Source of the DNA: Nisaea sp.
GTDB lineage: Bacteria > Pseudomonadota > Alphaproteobacteria > Thalassobaculales > Thalassobaculaceae
Length of the DNA stretch: 64,000 bases
NCBI RefSeq assembly: GCF_017640745.1
Contig: NZ_JAEPQA010000003.1
Span: forward strand, 62,001-126,000
Direction: 5' to 3'
Both the position numbers and the translations under genes were made by a program. Shown here piece after piece: positions 34,734 through 60,090 of the stretch. Positions within the stretch are counted from its first letter, which is position 1. Every line of letters starts with the position of its first letter. Below the pieces are notes generated by a model, which saw only the letters and a program-made list of their open reading frames with translations, was not told the origin of the DNA and did not search any database.

Positions 34734-35420
34734 TCAGGTTTCGATTGTCTCGCGGGATGCGGCCCAGCCGTCGGGATCGCGCAGGAACTGGCGCACCTCG
34801 GCGAGCTGTGCCGCCGTGAAGCCGCGCTTCTCGGCCGCGGCGAGCACATCCCACCAGGTGCAGAGCCCGTGCAAATCGACGCCCCTTTCCTTCATCGAGG
34901 CGGTGCTCTCGGGGAAGTTGCCGTAGTGGAAGACGACGAAGCAGTGAGCGACCTCGCCGCCGGCTTCGCGGATCGCGTCGATGAAGGAGAGCTTGGAGCC
35001 GCCGTCGGTCGCGAGATCCTCGACCAGGAGGATGCGTGCGCCCTCGGGGAAGGTGCCCTCGATCCGCGCGTTGCGGCCGAAGCCCTTCGGCTTCTTGCGG
35101 ATATAGAGCATCGGCAGGCCGAGCAGGTCGGCGATCCAGGCGGCGAACGGAATGCCCGCCGTCTCGCCGCCGGCGACCGCGTCGAACTGTTCGAACCCGG
35201 CCTTCTGGGCCAGCAGCTCGACGCCCATCTCCATCAGCTTCTTCCGCGCGCGGGGGAAGGAGATGATCTTGCGGCAATCGACATAGACCGGGCTGAGGCG
35301 TCCCGAGGTGAAGGTGAAGGGCTCTTCCGGGCGAATATGCACGGCCTCGATCTCGAGCAGAATATTGGCTGCGGTCTCGGCGATGCTCTGGCGGAAATCG
35401 GGGGTCTGGCTCTCGTCCAT
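34734..35420 (-). CDS. pyrE: Orotate phosphoribosyltransferase
   Basis: FTFTSGRLSPVYVDCRKIISFPRARKKL...AGGETAGIPFAAWIADLLGLPMLYIRKKPKGFGRNARIEG...ILLVEDLATDGGSKLSFI. Confidence 0.92.
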   Translation of the reverse strand: MDESQTPDFRQSIAETAANILLEIEAVHIRPEEPFTFTSGRLSPVYVDCRKIISFPRARKKLMEMGVELLAQKAGFEQFDAVAGGETAGIPFAAWIADLLGLPMLYIRKKPKGFGRNARIEGTFPEGARILLVEDLATDGGSKLSFIDAIREAGGEVAHCFVVFHYGNFPESTASMKERGVDLHGLCTWWDVLAAAEKRGFTAAQLAEVRQFLRDPDGWAASRETIET

Positions 35421-35475
35421 CGACGGGGGGCTCCCAAGGCAGGCGATTTGAAACGCCCGGAGCATAGACGAAGCC

Positions 35476-36195
35476 TCAGCCGTGTTCACCCTCGGAAAGC
35501 AGGAGATGTTTCAAGCGGTCGTGAGAGACCCCGCCGACCGGCGCGTCGAGCACCAGCCGGCCCCTGTGCAGCACGGCAACGCGGTCGGCGATCGACAGTG
35601 CGTGGGTCAGGCTCTGTTCCGCCAGCAGGACGCCAGCGCCGTGGTCGGCGAGACGCCGAATCGCAGGAAACAGCTCCTGGCAAATCACCGGCGCAAGGCC
35701 GAGGGAGGGCTCGTCGAGCAGCAGGATCTCCGGGGCGGACATCAGCGCGCGGGCGATGGCGACCACCTGCTGCTGGCCGCCGCTGAGACGCCAGCAGTCC
35801 TGCTTCAGGATGCAATCGAGCAGCGGGAACAGGCGTGTGATCTCCGCGATCCGCTCCGCTCTTTCTCGGGCCGGGGCACGGCACGCGGCATGCAGTGTGT
35901 CCGAGACAGTCATGCCCGGGAACAGACGGCGACCTTCAGGGCAGTAACCGATACCGAGCCGGGCCCGGTCGGCTGTAGCAAGCATTCCGAGATCGCGGCC
36001 CCGGAACCGCCCTGCACCGGACTCGGATTGTTCCAGGCCCATGATGGCGCGCAGCAGGCTTGATTTTCCGGCGCCGTTTAGGCCGAGCAATGCGACGATC
36101 TCTCCGCCGGAGACGGAGAGATCGAGCTTGTCGACCGCGATGCCGCCTCCTCTGAGGACAGAGACGTTGCGAAGCTCAAGCAGCGCGGCACTCAT
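35476..36195 (-). CDS. LIV/HAAT-type ABC transporter ATP-binding protein (LivF-like)
   Basis: GLNGAGKSSLLRAIMGL...GIGYCPEGRRLFPGMTVSDTL...LSGGQQQVVAIARALM...LLLDEPSLGLAP. Confidence 0.93.
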   Translation of the reverse strand: MSAALLELRNVSVLRGGGIAVDKLDLSVSGGEIVALLGLNGAGKSSLLRAIMGLEQSESGAGRFRGRDLGMLATADRARLGIGYCPEGRRLFPGMTVSDTLHAACRAPARERAERIAEITRLFPLLDCILKQDCWRLSGGQQQVVAIARALMSAPEILLLDEPSLGLAPVICQELFPAIRRLADHGAGVLLAEQSLTHALSIADRVAVLHRGRLVLDAPVGGVSHDRLKHLLLSEGEHG

Positions 36196-37847
36196 AACGG
36201 GCTCTCCCCGAAATAGGCCCGGATGGCGCGCGGATCCTGCACGATCTCCTTCGGCGTCCCTTCCGCGACGATGCGGCCGGCGCTGAGGCAGACCACTCGG
36301 TCGGCGAGCGGCAGCAGGAAGTCCATGGCGTGATCGACCAGCAGGATCGCATGTCCTTCGGCGGCGAGAGCCTTGAGAAGCTGGGCGAGGTCAGCGCGTT
36401 CGATATCGTTCATCCCTGCCGCCGGCTCGTCGAGCGCGAGCAGCGAGGCACCGGTGGCGAGCGCTCGCGCGATCTCGAGACGCTTTTGTGCCGCGGGCGG
36501 CAGGCTTCCGGCGAGATCGCCGGCGCGCTCGCCGAGCCCGACCCGTGCGAGCAGCGCTTCCGTATCACAAGGCCCGACCGCTTCAAGGCTGTCGCCCAAG
36601 GTGAGGCCGGGGGCGATCTGCGGGTGCTGGAAGGTCCGGACGATCCCGGTGCGGGCGATCCTTTCCGGGGACCGGCCTGTCAGATCCTCGTTGCCGAAAT
36701 GGATACGGCCGGAGCCGGGTTTCTCGATCCCGCTGATGAGGTTGACCAGCGTCGTCTTGCCGGATCCGTTCGGTCCAATCAGCCCGACAATCTCGCCGGG
36801 AGCGACGGAAATGGATACGTCGTCCAGCGCCGCCACACCGCCGAAATGCTTTGTAACATGTTCCACAGAGAGCGCCGCGTCGCGACGGGGGTGCGGGGCC
36901 GGTAGCTTCGCTTCGCTCCTGGGCGTCCGTCTCTCCGGCAGCAATCCGGCGAGACCGTTTGGCAGGAAAATGATGGCTCCGAGCAAGGCCGCGCCGTACG
37001 CAACGAGATAGTAATCAGCAAAGTCCCGGAACCATTCCGGCAGATGCACGAGCAGCAGCGCGCCGAGCACCGCGCCCAATGGGGAATCCCGGCCGCCGAT
37101 CACCGTCATCGCCAGCAGAAGGACCAGGATGTGGAAGGACAGCACGTCGGGCGAGACGACGCCGACCGCGTGGGCCTGCAATGCGCCTGCGAAACCTCCG
37201 AAACCGGCGCTGGCGAGGAAGAAGCGGAAGCGTATCGCGGCACCGTCGATACCCAGGGCGGCCGCGGCACTGGGTGCTGCACGCAAGGTCTCGACCGCGA
37301 GACTGCGCCTCCCCGCGGTGAGGCGGTGCGAGATCCAGAGCGAAACGGCAACGCAGGTCCAGACAAAGGCCGTCAGCGGCAGGCCGAAGCCGATCTGAAG
37401 ACCGGCAATCGAGATTTGAGGGATGCCGAAGAGGCCGTTGGCGCCGCCGGTCACCTCGGTCCAGTTGATTGCCGCGAGGAGCGTCAGTTGCGCGATGCCG
37501 AGGGTGGCGAGGGCGAAATAATGCGAGGCGAGGCGCAGCACCGGGATCGCGATCAGCGCGGCCAGCAGGACCGGCAGGGCCGTTCCGGCAATCACGGTAA
37601 ACGGGAAGCCGAAGCCAAGATCGAGCGCGGTCAGGGCGGCCGCATAGGCGCCGAGTCCGAAGAAGCATCCCTGTGCGAGGGAAAGCGCGCCGAGACGGCC
37701 GAAGACGAGCTGGTAGCCGATCGCCGCGATGGCGTAGATCCCGGCCCGCGTGAGAACGTCATGACCGTAGCTGCCGGCGAAAGCCACAGCATAGACCGTG
37801 AGCGCGGCACCGCCGACGAGGAGCAGCAGGGAGCGGCGGTCAGACAC
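36192..37847 (-). CDS. Fused LIV/HAAT-type permease + ATP-binding protein (LivM-LivG fusion)
   Basis: Aa 1-300 multi-TM LivM-like permease; aa about 320-551 LivG-like ATPase (GPNGSGKTTLVNLISG...LALDEPAAGMND). Confidence 0.92.
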   Translation of the reverse strand: MSDRRSLLLLVGGAALTVYAVAFAGSYGHDVLTRAGIYAIAAIGYQLVFGRLGALSLAQGCFFGLGAYAAALTALDLGFGFPFTVIAGTALPVLLAALIAIPVLRLASHYFALATLGIAQLTLLAAINWTEVTGGANGLFGIPQISIAGLQIGFGLPLTAFVWTCVAVSLWISHRLTAGRRSLAVETLRAAPSAAAALGIDGAAIRFRFFLASAGFGGFAGALQAHAVGVVSPDVLSFHILVLLLAMTVIGGRDSPLGAVLGALLLVHLPEWFRDFADYYLVAYGAALLGAIIFLPNGLAGLLPERRTPRSEAKLPAPHPRRDAALSVEHVTKHFGGVAALDDVSISVAPGEIVGLIGPNGSGKTTLVNLISGIEKPGSGRIHFGNEDLTGRSPERIARTGIVRTFQHPQIAPGLTLGDSLEAVGPCDTEALLARVGLGERAGDLAGSLPPAAQKRLEIARALATGASLLALDEPAAGMNDIERADLAQLLKALAAEGHAILLVDHAMDFLLPLADRVVCLSAGRIVAEGTPKEIVQDPRAIRAYFGESPL

Positions 37848-38733
37848 GGGTGCGGGCCCGTTCCGGCAGCAAACCGCTTGGGCGGAAGGCGAGCATGGCG
37901 AGAAGAACGCCGTAAAGCAGGGCTTCCGCGACGAGATAGGAGGTGAAGGCGGCGACCAGGGTCTCGAAAAGGCCGATCAGCAGGGCACCCAGCACGGCGC
38001 CGTCGAGCCGTCCCCATCCGCCGATGGTCACCGCGATATAGGCCTTCAGCATGAAGAGGCCGCCGTCGTTCGGGCTCACGAAGAACTGGTTCGAGAGCAG
38101 CAGGCCGGCCGCACCGGCGAGCGCGACGGCCAGTGCGAAGGAGAGGGTAATCATGCGTGCCGGGCGGATGCCGATGGCGGCGGCCATCTCCGGATCCTGT
38201 GCCACCGCCCGCATCCGCCGCCCGGTCTGCGTCCTGCCGAGGAAGAGGCCGGTGGCGGAGACCAGCAGCGCGGCGCTTCCCAGAACGCCAAGCTGTTGCA
38301 GTGAAAGGGTGAGCCCCCCGACGACCGGACCGTCGCCCGCGATCAGCGGCGGGCCGACGCGCGGCGCGGCGCCGAAGACGGCGTTTGCCAGATGCTGCAG
38401 GACGAGGCCGATTGCGATGGTGCTGACAAAGACGGCGACCCGCGGTCTCTTGCGAAGCGGGAAGTAGGCGAGATGGGCGAATCCGACGCCGAGCCCGCCC
38501 ATCAGCAGCATCACGAGAGGCAGGAGTAAAAGACCGGGGAGCCCCGCGGCATCGCCGACCAGGGGCGCAATCGCGATGGCGGCGAAGCCGCCTGCCATCA
38601 CGAGCTCGCCCTGGGCGAAATTGACCGCGCCGACGGCGTTGATGACGATGACGAAGCCGAGCGCGATCAGGGCGTAGGCCGCGCCGAGGGCGAGGCCGTT
38701 CAGCAGGATCTGCGCGAGGGCGAGAGACGTCAT
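37840..38733 (-). CDS. LIV/HAAT-type ABC transporter permease (LivH-like)
   Basis: LAQILLNGLALGAAYALIALGFVIVINAVGAVNFAQGELVMAGGF...; LivH family motifs. Confidence 0.93.
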   Translation of the reverse strand: MTSLALAQILLNGLALGAAYALIALGFVIVINAVGAVNFAQGELVMAGGFAAIAIAPLVGDAAGLPGLLLLPLVMLLMGGLGVGFAHLAYFPLRKRPRVAVFVSTIAIGLVLQHLANAVFGAAPRVGPPLIAGDGPVVGGLTLSLQQLGVLGSAALLVSATGLFLGRTQTGRRMRAVAQDPEMAAAIGIRPARMITLSFALAVALAGAAGLLLSNQFFVSPNDGGLFMLKAYIAVTIGGWGRLDGAVLGALLIGLFETLVAAFTSYLVAEALLYGVLLAMLAFRPSGLLPERARTRV

Positions 38734-38751
38734 GCGGGAAGTCTCGGCTCT

Positions 38752-39867
38752 TTAATTGGAGCCGTCGACATTCTCGTACCGGCTTGCGATCGCCGGCACG
38801 CGGCTCTTGCCGTCATAGCAGACCACGACCGCGTCATGCGCCATGTTGCCCGTGCCGTCGGACTTGTAGGTCATGGCAAGCCCGTCGAAGCTGTTGGCGG
38901 CGAGCCAGTCGCGCACCTCTGCGGCACTTTTTGCTCCGGCGGCTTTGGCGGCGACCAGCATGGCGGCACCGTCATATTGTGCCAATGCGAACGCGTCGGG
39001 CTCGATGCCGAAACGCTCGCGGTATTCGGCAGTGAAGTCGGCAACCGGGCCGGCCGCTTCGGAAATCGGCGAGGAGGCGCTTTCGGCGCAGACGCCCTTG
39101 AGCTGGGACGCCTCCAGCAGCGCGGCCGTGGTCGGCTGGTGCATCGCGGAGCCGGCGACCACCGGGAGCATGTTGCCGCTTTCCCGCGCCTGGCGGATGA
39201 CGAGAGCGGTGGAGCCCGAATGAAGATGCAACAGCAGAATGTCAGGGTCAGCCGCCTGCATCCGCGTCAGGACCGGCAGCATGTCCTTGACTGAGATATC
39301 GACGGCTTCCTCGAACACCAGCGGCGCGCCGAGACCGGAGAGGATCTTCTTCAGGTGCGCCGCGCCGCTCTGGCCGTAGGCGGTCGTCTGATAGAGCAGG
39401 GCGGGTCGCTTGGCGCCCAGTTTCTCGACCGCATATCGCGCCTGCGCGACTTTCACCACGCTGTCACCGGGAAAGAAGCGGAAGACGTTCGCGCTGCCGA
39501 GTTCCGTGATCTTCGCCGTACCGGAGACGGTGAGCAGCGGCACGCCCGCCCGGTCGGCGATCGGGATCATCGCCAGCATCTGCGTACCGAGCATGGAGGA
39601 AATTGCCGCGCTCGGCTCTCCTGCGAGCGCGCGGCGGAGGGCGGTGACCGCGCCTTCCGGCGTGGTTCCGGTATCGGTCACCTCGGTTTCGAGACCTTCC
39701 GCGGCGCCCAGTTTATCGATGGCCATGACCGCGCCGTTGCGCTGCGATGTCCCCTCAAGCGAAAGAAACCCTGTGATCGGGACGAGCACAGGCACGGTCT
39801 CGGCGCGGGCCGCGCCGGCGGCCGCGAGGATGGCGGCGAGGGCGATGGCAGTCTTCTTCAGGAACAT
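38752..39867 (-). CDS. LIV/HAAT-type ABC transporter substrate-binding protein (Peripla_BP_6)
   Basis: Signal peptide MFLKKTAIALAAILAAAGAARA; mature VPVLVPITGFLSLEGTSQRNGAVMAIDKLGAAEG...; first gene downstream of the riboswitch. Confidence 0.9.
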   Translation of the reverse strand: MFLKKTAIALAAILAAAGAARAETVPVLVPITGFLSLEGTSQRNGAVMAIDKLGAAEGLETEVTDTGTTPEGAVTALRRALAGEPSAAISSMLGTQMLAMIPIADRAGVPLLTVSGTAKITELGSANVFRFFPGDSVVKVAQARYAVEKLGAKRPALLYQTTAYGQSGAAHLKKILSGLGAPLVFEEAVDISVKDMLPVLTRMQAADPDILLLHLHSGSTALVIRQARESGNMLPVVAGSAMHQPTTAALLEASQLKGVCAESASSPISEAAGPVADFTAEYRERFGIEPDAFALAQYDGAAMLVAAKAAGAKSAAEVRDWLAANSFDGLAMTYKSDGTGNMAHDAVVVCYDGKSRVPAIASRYENVDGSN

Positions 39868-39962
39868 TCCCGGCACTCCAATCGGTCCGTTCTCGCGAAC
39901 GGCTTGCATCACGACCGGGGAGAGAGGAAATGCGACGGGTGGACCCGGTCTACGGATCCGGT

Positions 39963-40045
39963 GACGTCTCCCTGCGCCGGCATGACCCGGATCAGGTTCG
40001 ATGGGTATCCTCTCAGTTCCGGATCGGTCTCCGGAACACCCCAGC
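39963..40045 (-). ncRNA. TPP (THI element) riboswitch
   Basis: Reverse complement reads GGGGTGTTCCGGAGACCGATCCGGAACTGAGAGGATACCCATCGAACCTGATCCGGGTCATGCCGGCGCAGGGAGACGTCA, with the conserved CTGAGA, ACCC..GAACCTGATC(C)GGGTCATGCCGGCGCAGGGA core. Confidence 0.95.
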
Positions 40046-40276
40046 ATCACTTTGGCCCAACCTGCGGACGGCCCCGGGATTTGTCAAGGAGCACCCTGCG
40101 GGATACCGGCGGCCCGAAATTTTTTGAGGCTTTATCGCATTGATTTGCAAAGAAAGTGAGCGGATTTTCCGAAAGTTGAAAGAGAAAGTTCTTTCGAGTT
40201 CGCCATGATTTGTTAACCTTATATGCGCGGAAAAATTGAGGAGAGTGTTAAAGGGGCTCACGAAAGGTGAGTGCAT

Positions 40277-59154: not shown

Positions 59155-60090
59155 TCAGCTTACGCGGATGCGCGGGTTGAGATAGGCGTACCCGATATCG
59201 GAAATGAGCTGTGTCAGCAGCACGACGACGACGGAGACCAGCGAGCAGCTGAGCAGCAGGTCAATGTCGTTGTTGTCGGCGGCTTCCACCAGGGTCCATC
59301 CGAAGCCCTTGTAGTTGAAGAGCTTCTCGACGATGACGACGCCGGTGAGCAGCCAGGGGAACTGCAGCATGATCACGGTGAAAGGAGCGATCAGCGCGTT
59401 CCTGAGCGCGTGGCGTAGGACCTGGGCGCGGAAGGAGAGGCCTTTGAGCCGCGCGGTGCGGATATACTGCGCGGTCATCACCTCGGCCATGGAAGCCCGG
59501 GTCATGCGCGCGATATAGCCCATGCCGTAGATCGCCATTGTCATGACGGGCAGGGCGAAATTGTTGAAATCGATGCCGCCGGCCTTGGAGACGCCCTTCA
59601 GGACGCCAAGCCAGGAGGCGAACAGAACGGTAAACAGGATGCCGGAGACATATTCCGGCGTTGCCGTCGAGGCGATGGAGACGACGGAAAGACTTCGGTC
59701 CGTCTTCGAGCCCTCGCGCATGCCTGCGAGCACGCCGATGAGCAGAGCCGTCGGGACCATGGTGATCATGACCCAGAACATCAGCGTGCCGGTATAGCCG
59801 ATACGCGGCCCCAGAACTTCGTCGACCGGCTTGCGGAAGCGCGTTGACTGGCCGAAATCGCCGGTCGCCGCATTGCCGATCCATTCCGCATAACGTTCCA
59901 GCAGGGGGCGTCTGTAGCCTTCTTTTTCCAGCCAGCTCTCGACCGCTTCTTCGGTCATGCGGTTGTTGTTCTGTTCGAGCGCGAGTTTCTTAAGGTTCGG
60001 CTCGAGATTGACCAGATAGAACACCACGAGCGTCAAGCAGATCATCGTCACGATCATGACCGCCAGACGTCTCAGAATGAATTGCAGCAT
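59155..60090 (-). CDS. Peptide-type ABC transporter permease (DppB-like)
   Basis: MLQFILRRLAVMIVTMICLTLVVFYLVNLEPN...AQYIRTARLKGLSFRAQVLRHALRNALIAPFTVI. Confidence 0.93.
   Translation of the reverse strand: MLQFILRRLAVMIVTMICLTLVVFYLVNLEPNLKKLALEQNNNRMTEEAVESWLEKEGYRRPLLERYAEWIGNAATGDFGQSTRFRKPVDEVLGPRIGYTGTLMFWVMITMVPTALLIGVLAGMREGSKTDRSLSVVSIASTATPEYVSGILFTVLFASWLGVLKGVSKAGGIDFNNFALPVMTMAIYGMGYIARMTRASMAEVMTAQYIRTARLKGLSFRAQVLRHALRNALIAPFTVIMLQFPWLLTGVVIVEKLFNYKGFGWTLVEAADNNDIDLLLSCSLVSVVVVLLTQLISDIGYAYLNPRIRVS

Follow-up and report, generated by a model that had tools for sequence, protein, structure and literature searches.

A thiamine pyrophosphate (TPP) riboswitch aptamer precedes a complete LIV/HAAT-type ATP-binding cassette (ABC) importer operon in the genome of Nisaea sp. 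The locus lies in a 64,000-nucleotide stretch, here called the window (contig NZ_JAEPQA010000003.1, positions 62,001 to 126,000), and comprises the following features, listed from the upstream end:

39951-40053, minus: TPP riboswitch aptamer (RF00059, 65.6 bits, full model length)
38752-39867, minus: substrate-binding protein (SBP) with HAAT fold and clade-specific ligand site (Peripla_BP_6, E 7e-45)
37840-38733, minus: LivH-type permease (BPD_transp_2, E 2.6e-31)
36192-37847, minus: fused LivM-type permease and LivG-type ATPase in a single open reading frame (ORF; BPD_transp_2, ABC_tran and BCA_ABC_TP_C)
35476-36195, minus: LivF-type ATPase (ABC_tran, E 1.8e-31; best NCBIfam match UrtE/LivF, below cut-off)

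The aptamer match (E 1.2e-10) exceeds the RF00059 gathering score of 54.3 bits and ends 83 nt before the ATG of the SBP gene at 39867. The initial annotation, which had suggested this search, had placed the aptamer at 39963-40045 on the minus strand, about 95 nt before the SBP gene; these coordinates correspond to the core of the Rfam match, and the distance is right when counted from that core. A longer ORF with a GTG start that runs through the aptamer (38752-40050) was rejected as the true SBP gene in view of a conserved Shine-Dalgarno sequence at 39879 and the ATG at 39867. A pattern scan for the sigma-70 consensus around the leader found no promoter. A TTGACA sequence at 40082-40087 (minus), some 30 nt before the aptamer and nearly conserved in Nisaea denitrificans, is a possible -35 element. 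Since no intrinsic terminator was found 3' of the aptamer, translational control is preferred. The folding energy of the leader is by itself unremarkable (z -1.28).

According to Pfam, the operon encodes the complete set of a HAAT importer, with a Peripla_BP_6 SBP, two BPD_transp_2 permeases and two ABC ATPases, in agreement with the initial reading of SBP, LivH, fused LivM-LivG and LivF on one strand. None of the operon proteins reaches the curated NCBIfam cut-offs for named LIV or urea subunits, with scores (against cut-offs, in bits) of 59.6 (477) for LivK, 109 (379) for LivH, 120 (366) for LivM, 180 (362) for LivG and 164 (441) for LivF. It had also been anticipated that automated annotation would assign such genes to branched-chain amino acid transport, and the Azospirillum copies are indeed named "ABC transporter substrate-binding protein" and "branched-chain amino acid ABC transporter" in RefSeq-derived annotation.

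We then examined how consistently switch and operon occur together. An orthologue scan with one genome per species yielded 80 loci, including Azospirillum, Thalassobaculum, Skermanella and SAR116, whose SBPs are 44-79% identical to that of the window, whereas other plasmid-borne HAAT proteins remain below 30%. The nearest named relative is N. denitrificans (SBP identity 79%); the genus Nisaea belongs to the Thalassobaculaceae. Over the 2.16 Mb of sequence at these loci (both strands), a strict aptamer pattern has 56 matches, all of them 56-380 nt before the SBP orthologue. Rfam contributed two loci beyond the strict pattern (L038 and L039; L and G numbers denote our loci and genomes), which brings the loci with a switch ahead of the SBP gene to 58 of the 80; of the other 22, L054 is truncated by the end of its contig. 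In a less selected sample of 387 evenly drawn Alphaproteobacteria, 33 genomes carry an SBP orthologue (438-630 bits), with nothing else at E <= 1e-60. Upstream switches were found in 23 of these 33 carriers, 20 of them over the gathering score (host included) and three below it (53.4, 49.5 and 48.6 bits). On the SBP tree, switch state changes about 5 times compared to 18.8 times with shuffled labels. Most switch-less rows sit in nested groups, and the largest of these, made up of Acetobacteraceae-type and betaproteobacterial loci, is itself nested within switch-bearing ones. Based on the locus counts, the even genome sample and the clustering on the SBP tree, the pairing of switch and operon is beyond chance and, by these comparisons, old and maintained.

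The helices of the aptamer point in the same direction. Across 57 relatives, the second pair of P5 is C-G in 33, U-A in 23 and mismatched in one, a compensatory change, and the third pair is G-C in 53, A-U in three and G-U in one. The sequences of P3 and P1 vary strongly, with pairing retained in nearly all loci. TPP control of this operon, as predicted from sequence, is well supported.

For the Nisaea leaders, folding predicts TPP-triggered masking of the Shine-Dalgarno sequence and translational shut-off, involving three short elements:

40009-40014, minus: GAGAGG in J2/4 of the aptamer core, the predicted anti-anti-Shine-Dalgarno strand (identical in N. denitrificans)
39919-39927, minus: CCUCUCUCC, the predicted switching strand, of which CCUCUC (39927-39922) would pair with the aptamer core and CUCC (39922-39919) with the Shine-Dalgarno sequence
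39876-39879, minus: GGAG, the Shine-Dalgarno sequence of the SBP gene, 8 nt before the ATG

GAGAGG, the linker CCUCUC and the start-region UUGGAGUGCCGGGAAUG are shared between the window and N. denitrificans, whose linkers have otherwise diverged. GAGAGG pairs with CCUCUC at a mean probability of 0.99 when folding is unconstrained, a value that drops to 0.0 with the aptamer forced; in this forced state, GGAG pairs with CUCC at about 0.8 in the window sequence. At low TPP, the aptamer core would thus pair with the switching strand and the operon would be translated. When TPP is plentiful, the aptamer would fold and the freed CUCC strand would mask the Shine-Dalgarno sequence of the SBP gene, shutting off the operon. 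In five relatives (L040, L057, L065, L067 and L072), whose leaders are shorter than that of Nisaea, the aptamer abuts the gene and its conserved AGGGAG is itself the Shine-Dalgarno sequence, with an in-frame ATG within about 12 nt, so that ligand binding there would block initiation directly.

The AlphaFold (AF2) model of the SBP (pLDDT 92) adopts a HAAT, or type I periplasmic-binding-protein, fold. Among PDB structures it comes closest to LivJ/LivK-type, GABA-receptor, aromatic-acid and urea-binding proteins (TM about 0.8, identity 15-23%). Near-invariant stretches that are likely to face the ligand were found across 58 orthologues, namely TGFLxLEGxSQRNGA, GTQMLA, SGTA, FRFFPxD, YQTTAYGQSG, GSAMHQP and CAE. 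We compared the site with the known ligand residues of E. coli LivJ, among which Glu226 holds the amino group (a task of the preceding position, as Asp, in other members of the family). Ser79 of LivJ corresponds to Gly94 in the window SBP, Tyr202 to His216, Tyr18 to Glu38 and Glu226 to Ser240/Ala241; the automatic alignment slips near Glu226, and this column was re-read by eye against the motifs and PDB alignments. The replaced positions G94, H216 and S240/A241 are invariant or nearly so in the clade. The SBP belongs to a distinct HAAT clade. Since the LivJ-type residues are replaced, its site probably does not bind an alpha-amino acid in the manner usual for the family, an argument that gives no ligand identity.

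Thiamine genes were inventoried by model cut-offs in 30 carrier genomes. In the host genome, which is 97% complete, we found no ThiC, ThiM or thiamine pyrophosphokinase (TPK) and no Thi4 or ThiB over cut-off, and the ThiG model gave only weak partial matches to other proteins. Because these genes were not found, the host is predicted to import either both halves of the vitamin or the whole. Among the 30 genomes, none has ThiB (TIGR01254) over cut-off, and none has Thi4, considered as a substitute thiazole synthase, over cut-off either, the Thi4 matches being short and resembling generic FAD/NAD-binding segments. ThiE is present in all 30, several genomes having a second copy; the host gene lies at L153:4178-4813 (host genome C82), next to tkt, gapA and fba. 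The host has a single further TPP switch, upstream of ThiXYZ-type genes (a permease and an NMT1-type SBP). Thalassobaculum-type genomes (G002-G004) possess three TPP-controlled units, which are ThiZY for pyrimidine import, ThiM (together with ThiE in G002) and the LIV-type operon. In the SAR116 genomes G012 and G013 the switch of the operon is the only TPP switch found; in G014 a second one precedes ThiY and TenA.

The distribution of the operon over the 387 genomes, with kinship ignored, follows the loss of ThiG. Absence of ThiC had no effect on operon presence (22/260 vs 11/127, p 1.0). In contrast, the operon occurs in four of the eight genomes with ThiC and without ThiG, compared to 7 of the 119 that have both (p 0.002). 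Stratified by ThiC, the switch-bearing operon is associated with ThiG absence in both strata with an odds ratio of about 8-11 (p 0.005 when only switches over the gathering score are counted, p 0.0002 when two sub-threshold switches are added). Both ThiC and ThiG are absent from 18 of the 33 carriers. Carriers without a detectable switch have ThiG in 7 of 10 cases (G346 has the 53.4-bit switch).

Judging from these sequence comparisons, the operon probably encodes an ABC importer that is built on a HAAT (LIV-type) scaffold, is repressed by TPP and takes up a thiamine vitamer. The initial annotation had named thiamine, hydroxymethylpyrimidine (HMP), a thiazole or a salvage intermediate as its cargo; this still appears to be the likeliest class of substrates, with HMP now disfavoured.

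Within this class, the thiazole moiety, as hydroxyethylthiazole (HET) or carboxy-HET, is moderately favoured over intact thiamine because the operon follows ThiG loss and is present in genomes with ThiC and without ThiG, and because many dual auxotrophs already possess a route for pyrimidine import. Imported thiazole would be joined by ThiE to the pyrimidine from the separate TPP-controlled ThiXYZ-type system to give thiamine phosphate, and the three TPP-controlled units of the Thalassobaculum-type genomes fit such a route. Specific import of the thiazole moiety is the narrowest form of the vitamer proposal, and we rate it slightly below an even chance. Against it, ThiM is missing in Nisaea and several SAR116 genomes, the group with ThiC and without ThiG spans three lineages only, and Azospirillum has ThiG.

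Import of intact thiamine or thiamine phosphates, from which a ThiK-type thiamine kinase and ThiL would give TPP as in Escherichia coli, is the second candidate, less likely than the thiazole moiety and with other vitamers far behind, and is possible above all in SAR116. There, G012 and G013, in which the operon has the sole TPP switch, lack ThiC, ThiM, TPK, ThiB and full-length ThiG. The large share of carriers without both ThiC and ThiG also fits uptake of the whole vitamin. However, about ten dual-auxotroph genomes keep a TPP-controlled ThiXYZ-type importer, which would then be redundant, and the four carriers with ThiC and without ThiG make sense only if they have a source of thiazole.

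Several observations weigh against a TPP-repressed importer of thiamine vitamers. TPK was found in none of the 30 genomes, so imported thiamine would need another kinase; this is not fatal, as the E. coli control likewise lacks TPK. The host and many further carriers have no ThiM, and imported HET would need another kinase as well. Either import route requires one further kinase (ThiM-like or ThiK-like). Furthermore, a tblastn search for thi genes within about 7 kb of the operon at the 80 loci gave two weak matches and none that was convincing, and the link to thiamine therefore rests on the riboswitch and the phyletic pattern. The ThiG association carries no phylogenetic correction, the four carriers with ThiC and without ThiG come from three families, and Azospirillum carries the operon despite having both ThiC and ThiG. 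In the leader of N. denitrificans, the free-state Shine-Dalgarno sequence is paired to the beginning of the coding region in a truncated model, making the predicted switch less clean than that of the window.

Acetohydroxyacid synthase is TPP-dependent, and a true branched-chain amino acid importer could be under TPP control because low TPP would signal a need for external branched-chain amino acids. The operon type and the nearest solved structures, which are LIV/HAAT, agree with this explanation. We nevertheless regard it as improbable, since the amino-acid-type ligand residues are replaced by others invariant in the clade, the NCBIfam LIV scores lie far under their cut-offs, and operon presence tracks ThiG loss. 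Import of the pyrimidine moiety (HMP, aminomethylpyrimidine or formylaminopyrimidine) is more improbable still: in most of these genomes, ThiXYZ-type pyrimidine uptake is a second transport function under TPP control, which speaks for pyrimidine transport under such control and at the same time leaves this role already filled, and ThiC absence does not predict the operon.

A thiamine vitamer importer of this kind would differ from the known systems. Domains, gene order and fold resemble LivKHMGF/HAAT importers; here, however, LivM and LivG are fused, the residues of the amino-acid site are replaced, and the operon is under predicted TPP control. The urea importer UrtABCDE is also of the HAAT type, and in NCBIfam the LivH- and LivF-type proteins match the UrtB and UrtE models best, below their cut-offs, but the operon described here has the fusion and the TPP control. 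ThiXYZ (NMT1-type) is likewise an ABC importer under a TPP riboswitch in the same genomes; it belongs to a different ABC importer family, with an NMT1-type instead of a Peripla_BP_6 SBP. ThiBPQ is a vitamin B1 ABC importer under TPP control in other bacteria, whereas the SBP of the window is a Peripla_BP_6 protein and the 30 carriers inventoried have no ThiB over cut-off. An ordinary TPP riboswitch is here joined to HAAT-type proteins, and it is this combination that is unusual. A published list of transporters for vitamin B1 and its vitamers comprises thiB, thiT, thiY, thiV, cytX, ykoF, thiPerm and omr1 and contains no HAAT-type system (PMC10881298). Thiazole uptake systems have been described as of "unknown sequence identity" (PMC5899164), and in some SAR116 subclades neither a thiamine nor an HMP transporter was recognised (PMC12262181). 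A TPP-controlled LIV operon is not described in the open-access text searched, which does not extend to RegPrecise and the supplement of PMC3766115 (19 TPP-controlled transporter orthologues); the accessible part of Sun et al. 2013 (PMC3766115) names none.

The operon is directly followed by a further gene:

34734-35489, minus: PyrE, orotate phosphoribosyltransferase (NF001729, 350 bits, cut-off 245), directly downstream of LivF

In Nisaea, Thalassobaculum litoreum, SAR116 and relatives, pyrE lies closely 3' of the LivF gene. It may be co-transcribed with the operon and TPP-controlled, with at most a candidate role in the system. Among the switch-less loci, an iron-containing alcohol dehydrogenase is encoded close to the operon in L054, L058, L059, L060, L070, L071, L075 and L077, preceded in L070 and L071 by an aldehyde dehydrogenase, and catabolic use of a hydroxyethyl compound is possible in these relatives. 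These neighbours and a gamma-glutamyltranspeptidase in the switch-less clade did not settle the substrate. Genes adjoining two switch-less operons (L070:5040-5948 and L059:5909-6886) show weak similarity, below Pfam cut-offs, to AurF or the ribonucleotide reductase small chain (diiron, ferritin-like). Many Azospirillum loci (L085, L086 and others) have a DMT-family transporter and a nucleoside salvage cluster (cdd, PNP, deoC, deoA) upstream of the operon. Elsewhere in the window, a Rfam Cis52_sRNA match (59400-59572, plus, 72.8 bits) lies antisense within an OppB-like permease gene (59155-60090, minus) and may merely reflect conserved coding sequence.

The majority of marine bacteria are unable to synthesise vitamin B1 and acquire either the vitamin or its halves from seawater. 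We tentatively propose, as a possibility we hold less firmly than thiazole import as such, that the operon is the missing high-affinity thiazole (HET/carboxy-HET) importer of Alphaproteobacteria, used by SAR116, Thalassobaculum, Nisaea and Azospirillum, and the first HAAT/LIV-type importer of a vitamin precursor under a TPP riboswitch. If the assignment to thiamine vitamers is true, a widespread family named "branched-chain amino acid transporter" would be an importer of B1 vitamers, and predictions of auxotrophy as well as readings of metatranscriptomes would change.

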